Positions 17,880 through 57,967 of a stretch of DNA of 64,000 nt are shown one piece after another. Made by a program: the position numbers and the translations under genes. Source of the stretch: Gigantopelta aegis (lineage: Eukaryota > Mollusca > Gastropoda > Neomphalida > Peltospiridae); contig NC_054701.1 in the NCBI RefSeq assembly GCF_016097555.1, positions 1,526,091-1,590,090 of the forward strand, written 5' to 3'. Position 1 is the first letter of the stretch. Every line of letters starts with the position of its first letter. The notes under the pieces are model-generated. The model had not been told where the DNA came from. It did no database searches and saw only the letters and a program-made list of their open reading frames with translations.

Positions 17880-18018
17880 TTACTGATCCAACATCTTGAG
17901 CATGTTCTTCACCAGAGGGTTGACGTCAATGCCGCGCATCTTCCAGTCTAGCGCACAGAAGTCCGCACACTCGATCTTATCTCTCTGGTACTGAGTCAGA
18001 TCCACCGTCTCCTCCGTG
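17880..18018 (-). CDS. Coding exon 8 (terminal exon)
   Basis: Acceptor TTGTGTTTTCAG|CACGG. The first base completes an Ile codon with exon 7. It encodes TEETVDLTQYQRDKIECADF, CALDWKMRGIDVNPLVKNML and KMLDQ, then TAA at 17880-17882. No recognised domain. Confidence 0.85.

Positions 18019-57967: not shown

Follow-up and report, generated by a model that had tools for sequence, protein, structure and literature searches.

Why should tandem arrays lie at, or in contact with, each 5′ splice site of a single gene, and which process would have placed them there? This question is raised by a gene read on the reverse strand (57967..17880, –) of the stretch of 64,000 nt analysed here, which is called the window throughout. 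The gene was modelled with eight exons and a CDS of 1050 nt coding for 349 aa, presenting zero internal stops and GT/AG borders at all seven introns (Table 1). The protein and Pfam searches were performed with a 350-aa version of the gene product, one residue longer than the 349-aa model, and the former recovered 14 proteins at E <= 0.001, with identities of 39-58%. The named relatives among these matches (Liolophura, Magallana, Saccostrea, Lymnaea, Pomacea, and Nucella) were molluscan, which we take to be a chiton, oysters, and gastropods. The window therefore probably derives from a mollusc. Pfam revealed only an EF-hand pair below threshold (16.8 bits against a cut-off of 30), plus one match at chance level. 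Seven of the 14 relatives were taken into an alignment, in which junctions 5 and 7 fitted all seven free of gaps, and junction 6 fitted six, with the protein P0010 carrying one additional residue there. In the same alignment, exon 3 was backed by a VPxLP motif found in five of the seven relatives and exon 4 was backed loosely; exons 1 and 2 received no homology backing from these seven proteins and were modelled on their open frame alone.

Table 1. Exons, tandem arrays, and other features of the window (positions counted from its first letter).
Feature	Position	Strand	Description
Exon 1	57947..57967	-	ATG, 7 codons, 21 nt; donor AAG|GTAAGA; in-frame TAA immediately upstream; without homology support
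Intron 1 array	57277..57928	-	unit 39 nt; begins 18 nt past donor; donor not clearly in unit
Exon 2	54359..54642	-	donor GACAG|GTAACC; basis is open frame only
Intron 2 donor array	54246-54363	-	3 copies of 39 nt
Diverged copy of exon 2 end	54207-54235	-	29 nt, 93%; after intron 2 donor array
Tc1-like transposase fragment, intron 2	50422-50886	-
GGT triplet repeat, intron 2	45223-47148		~1.9 kb, degenerate
39-nt array, intron 2	41422-42545	-	pyrimidine-rich
Exon 3	33038..33176	-	VPxLP motif
Intron 3 array	32670..33030	-	unit 40 nt; begins 7 nt past donor; weak donor match
Exon 4	31680..31763	-	84 nt, 74 of them repeated in intron 4 array
Intron 4 array	29106..31753	-	unit 80 nt (exon 4 body, donor, and ~17 intron nt); ~33 copies
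Exon 5	28734..28833	-	donor GAAA|GTAAGTAG (phase 1); relatives agree with junction
Intron 5 main array	27101..28297	-	unit 35 nt; two more unit copies at donor
Tc1-like transposase fragment, intron 5	23738-24744	-
Intron 5 acceptor-side array	22937..23460	-	unit 28/35 identical to donor-side unit
Further intron 5 array	22758..22922	-	ends 22 nt before acceptor
Exon 6	22617..22735	-	donor AAG|GTATGT
Intron 6 donor array	21461..22626	-	unit 41 nt
Intron 6 second array	20429..20615	-	ends 75 nt before acceptor
Exon 7	20190..20353	-	donor AT|GTAGGT (phase 2); relatives agree with junction
Intron 7 donor array	19641..20201	-	unit 21-22 nt
Intron 7 acceptor array	18015..18374	-	unit 71 nt, includes TTTTCAG acceptor
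Exon 8	17880..18018	-	includes stop codon
GC-rich tandem block	14-9322		unit ~60 nt, ~59% GC
GC-rich tandem block	59837-64000		units 52-68 nt, ~54% GC
Open frame of 939 aa	10269-13088	-	reverse transcriptase domain, LINE-like

Tandem repeats are abundant throughout this region. Counting TRF arrays with a period of at least 10, 21 were found inside the gene, covering 16,031 of its 40,088 nt (40%), and 31 in the whole window, where minisatellites made up 31,533 of the 64,000 nt (49%); since half of the window is minisatellite, the region may be atypical of its own genome. Arrays were also present away from the donors: intron 2 contained six more, and some occurred in introns 1, 5, 6, and 7. The gene is flanked by GC-rich tandem blocks on both sides, and intron 2 also contains a long degenerate GGT repeat. 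Another array of this intron, with a 39-nt unit (41422-42545), carries CAG in most units, has several frames open, and ends at CCCCCCG|GTGAGT; Pfam gave no match for it, and it may be an exon, either dead or missing from the model, whose acceptor has been repeated.

The preliminary description of this locus held that an array is seeded at or beside every 5′ splice site of the gene, and that position, rather than sequence, is what the arrays have in common. The CDS of the present model begins and ends at the same bases as the gene described there. Measured from the donor to the TRF start of the array (negative values lying in the exon), the distances were +18, –5, +7, –74, +436, –10, and –12 for introns 1 to 7, respectively, so that an array was found within 25 nt of six of the seven donors. 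The claim needs a qualification in intron 5: contact with its donor is made by two unit copies (GAAA|GTAAGTAGTATCTGTTAA...), which were recognized by reading and are absent from the TRF output, and the main array starts 436 nt inside the intron. Even so, when arrays were put at random within their own introns, only 0.33 donors were expected to have an array this close considering all 21 arrays, or 0.27 considering the 17 higher-scoring ones, and 0 of 100,000 placements reached six of seven. The enrichment over random placement at the level of the gene, whose absence, there or genome-wide, had been named as a refutation of the idea, was therefore recovered, and the common property of the arrays is indeed their position. 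Leaving out intron 1, five of the six remaining donors had an array within 25 nt (0/100,000 placements), introns 4-7 alone gave three of four (P = 0.0007), and a binomial comparison of the six of seven donors with a background of 10% of the eligible positions of the window gave P = 7e-6. All P values reported here come from one gene chosen for its striking look, and are consequently descriptive. A scan for junction recurrence that does not depend on TRF gave scores of 40, 53, 38, 30, and 54 for donors 2, 4, 5, 6, and 7, of 14 and 16 for donors 1 and 3, and of 34 for acceptor 7; its 95th percentile was 24 at 77 exon-interior positions and 60 at 300 non-array positions, hence it is of little use as a control, and the high non-array value may be due to microsatellites.

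The repeat units themselves indicate where the arrays came from. When each unit was compared with the 30 nt around the donor junction of its own intron, introns 2, 4, 5, 6, and 7 matched at a level reached by 0 of 500 shuffles in each case, confirming that these units contain the exon end together with the donor, as had been read from the letters. The match was weak in intron 3 (shuffle fraction 0.022) and unconvincing in intron 1 (0.078); in keeping with the earlier reading, the arrays of these two introns start 7 and 18 nt from the donor, respectively; they hold no strong decoy donors, and the donor is not clearly part of the unit. Exon bases were recovered in the units by BLAST, which revealed 74 of the 84 nt of exon 4, and stretches of 8-14 nt from exon 7 (six matches shown of 16). 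From exon 2, 29 nt ending 5 nt short of the donor are found again in a copy that is older and diverged. Exons 5 and 6 contribute approximately 9-10 nt to the unit according to reading and to the TRF start, a shared stretch too short for BLAST, which explains why matches were obtained for exons 2, 4, and 7 only. Although the arrays begin close to the first intron base, as would be expected if the RNA of a spliced intron had been re-inserted as a lariat or if a mobile intron-like element had entered the gene, the presence of exon bases upstream of GT means that spliced-out RNA cannot be the source. Introners, or mobile introns, carry the same sequence into several introns. Here, the units differed from intron to intron, as had been stated, with cross-intron scores of at most 26, whereas a unit compared with the donor of the same intron scored 30-53 in introns 2, 4, 5, 6, and 7. 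Lariat re-insertion and introners are thus contradicted by the exon bases and by the intron-specific units, and we give them hardly any credence. As a separate observation, some resemblance, possibly that of a family, links the intron 1 unit to that of intron 4 (score 26), and the latter to that of intron 5 (score 23). Also apart from this, about 9 nt around EPVQ in exon 4 were absent from the array copies examined, and the seven aligned relatives were gapped at the same stretch, where the alignment is loose; the intron 4 array may retain an older form of this exon.

The preliminary description had also connected the arrays with the birth of new introns, in which tandem duplication of AGGT sites creates an intron. 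This is a well-known model, as outlined in PMC3443670, and the present units are like it in consisting of a tandem-duplicated segment with splice-site sequence, with AG|GT being present in those of introns 2, 4, and 6. Under that model, the duplicated segment supplies the two ends of the intron, so the acceptor should derive from the donor unit. In contrast, the comparison of the donor unit with its own acceptor region gave shuffle fractions of 0.27 to 0.99 in introns 2-7 (0.04 in intron 1); in introns 2-7 the donor unit is therefore unrelated to the acceptor end, indicating that existing introns were enlarged. Intron gain was rejected on this basis and is very improbable for this gene.

Acceptor sites were not free of arrays. 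Acceptor 7 is embedded in an array built of units with ...GTGTTTTCAG|(C/T)ACG, and acceptor 5 is found 22 nt from an array end, so that two of seven acceptors had an array within 25 nt (P 0.025-0.039), or two of four considering introns 4-7 alone (P 0.016). The junction was inside the unit at five of seven donors vs. one of seven acceptors (Fisher P = 0.10), and an array lay within 25 nt of six of seven donors vs. two of seven acceptors (Fisher P = 0.10); counting the contact in intron 5, the latter comparison became seven vs. two of seven (Fisher P = 0.02). A preference for donors over acceptors is therefore suggestive and not established. These figures bear on the proposal that duplications are preferentially seeded at 5′ splice sites by breaks or slippage during transcription, involving R-loops, stalled forks, or nascent RNA bound by U1. 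The six donors observed vs. about 0.3 expected, and the excess of donors over acceptors with the junction in the unit, are what such a process would produce, but the latter excess is not firm, acceptors are somewhat enriched too and acceptor 7 was duplicated likewise, introns 4-7 present three of four donors against two of four acceptors, and the observations come from a single gene, chosen as striking. A donor-directed process is accordingly conceivable but doubtful. Its general form, in which 5′ splice sites would be hotspots of tandem duplication genome-wide, with copying of exon borders linked to transcription or splicing and introns growing from their 5′ ends with decoy arrays outside cephalochordates, is likewise conceivable but doubtful.

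An expected product of copying the donor is a multiplicity of decoys, and the dozens of decoy donors announced earlier were borne out by 116 sense sites in the arrays of the gene with at least 7 of 9 matches to CAGGTAAGT, vs. 5 in antisense. On the sense strand, six of the 31 arrays of the window carried such strong decoys at a density of 0.58 to 0.99 per copy, all six lying in introns 2, 4, 5, 6, and 7, where the unit holds the donor; the other 25 arrays presented 0 to 0.03 per copy. On the opposite strand, strong donor-like sites reached at most 0.49 per copy, and at a laxer cut (6 of 9), five arrays away from donors had 0.57 to 2.93 sense sites per copy. Pseudo-donors (at least 7 of 9) were found near an array start at 11 of 36 eligible sense sites vs. 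2 of 28 antisense sites; part of the sense excess probably represents copies of real donors. In the intron 6 arrays, 23 of the 26 strong decoys were AAG|GTAAGT (8 of 9), which by this simple count outscores the donor of the model, AAG|GTATGT (7 of 9). Extension of the exons to the nearest strong decoys, of which no more than four within 400 nt were taken in each of five introns, introduced a stop in 14 of 15 cases and shifted the frame in the 15th, and decoy use would for this reason be harmful.

Selection on splicing, which had been listed among the candidate processes, could have retained these sites, for example as additional U1-binding sites that aid long introns or block premature polyadenylation. 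The strand asymmetry of the decoys could be read in its favor, as could the conservation of the donor 9-mer within the unit, which ranked 2nd of 35 in the acceptor-side array of intron 5 and 1st of 22 in intron 7. The sense bias, however, follows from donor copying, the intron 1 and 3 arrays have no strong decoys, and the 9-mer ranked 63rd of 80 in intron 4, 15th of 41 in intron 6, and 27th of 35 on the donor side of intron 5, where the stretch included non-array sequence. Decoy donors are not consistently better kept than the rest of the unit, and with such mixed ranks selection finds no clear support and appears improbable.

The kind of arrangement observed here is not new, since the 'mirages' of amphioxus were already described (PMC3087553, PMC3902484). 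In the account of PMC3087553, mirages are minisatellite-like tandem duplications across exon/intron boundaries in globin genes and Adh3, occurring at 5′ and 3′ boundaries, in which many copies carry AG/GT signals, boundary copies escape homogenization, and length is unstable while splicing is apparently undisturbed. The same source reports length polymorphism and somatic instability for the Adh3 mirage and names BflGb6 and BflGb9 as the globin genes, with BflGb6 haplotypes of 3 and 6 copies, and PGBD5 and troponin C are added as mirage genes in PMC3902484. As far as these descriptions go, the present gene shares the boundary-spanning unit (donors 2, 4, 5, 6, and 7, and acceptor 7; introns 1 and 3 not clearly) and the splice signal in many copies (the decoy-rich arrays above). 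In introns 4, 6, and 7, as in the BflGb6 mirage, divergence is greatest in the copy adjoining the exon, in contrast to intron 5, whose first copy is near consensus (33/35). The differences are that the gene here has molluscan named relatives, that each of its donors has or touches an array, and that the intron 4 array contains ~33 copies against the 3 and 6 of BflGb6. Earthworm metallothionein genes offer another invertebrate example of large arrays within an intron (PMC12783039), namely intronic minisatellites whose units, in the available description, are not said to hold a splice junction, unlike those reported here. Among the matches listed from the open-licence literature, none described minisatellites that span splice sites in molluscs, and articles on gastropod haemocyanin and on a cone-snail intron had no bearing on the question. 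The present arrays look like the same kind of structure as the amphioxus mirages, in an unusually complete case.

We therefore regard it as quite probable that introns already present were enlarged in the manner of mirages, within a region rich in minisatellites, and that this is tolerated because the exon-nearest donor stays in use. Under such a mechanism, a short tandem duplication would by chance span an exon/intron junction, as in the donors and the acceptor where the junction lies inside the unit. It would be harmless because the copies fall into the intron while the exon-nearest site is used; this site would remain functional and the extra copies would turn into intron. Use of the outermost donor is predicted from the reading frame at junctions 5-7, as the frame supported by homologs requires the exon-nearest site. 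The array would then grow by unequal exchange or slippage, plausibly in a region with 31 arrays in 64 kb, and its inner copies would be homogenized by unequal exchange or conversion, so that a diverged exon-adjacent copy is expected. The limits on the exon side would be sharp because deeper changes in the exon are purged, and the outcome would be pre-existing introns made longer and carrying numerous decoy donors that go unused. The weak points of mirage-type enlargement are the undiverged first copy of intron 5, the intron 1 and 3 arrays in which a donor is not clear, and the donor-like sites that five arrays away from donors carry at the 6 of 9 cut. Moreover, random duplication and purging alone do not predict the enrichment at donors, which implies a mutational or selective bias, or that this gene is an extreme draw.

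Intron 5 holds two arrays with 35-nt units, ~3.6 kb apart, and the two units agree at 28 of 35 positions (the best of 2000 shuffles over all rotations reached 22). Tc1-like transposase fragments are found between these arrays, which may be one array split by insertions. Similarly, one more copy of the intron 1 unit occurs near 55.27 kb, beyond LINE-like pieces, and the intron 1 array may thus be older than the LINE-like insertion. Long near-identical arrays are difficult to assemble, and an assembly artefact could in principle generate such repeats; nevertheless, the copies carry variants, older diverged copies exist, and LINE-like pieces separate the main intron 1 array from its other unit copy, which makes an artefact very unlikely. 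As to the mobile elements of the window, the Tc1-like fragments (DDE_3, HTH_Tnp_Tc3_2) occur in both introns 2 and 5, and several strong matches of the 939-aa LINE-like frame outside the gene are filed under genome bins of Candidatus Thiodiazotropha and Sedimenticola, which suggests that animal retrotransposons sit in published symbiont bins.

These findings extend a little-studied oddity of amphioxus to a gene with molluscan named relatives, in which an array lies at or touches every donor. The many decoys of similar or greater strength placed beside the donor presumed to be used constitute a natural test of first-donor choice. If an excess of arrays at donors were true genome-wide, splice sites would be mutational hotspots and provide a route to intron lengthening; if there were no such excess, the gene would show that a minisatellite-rich genome tolerates arrays right up to the exon edge.
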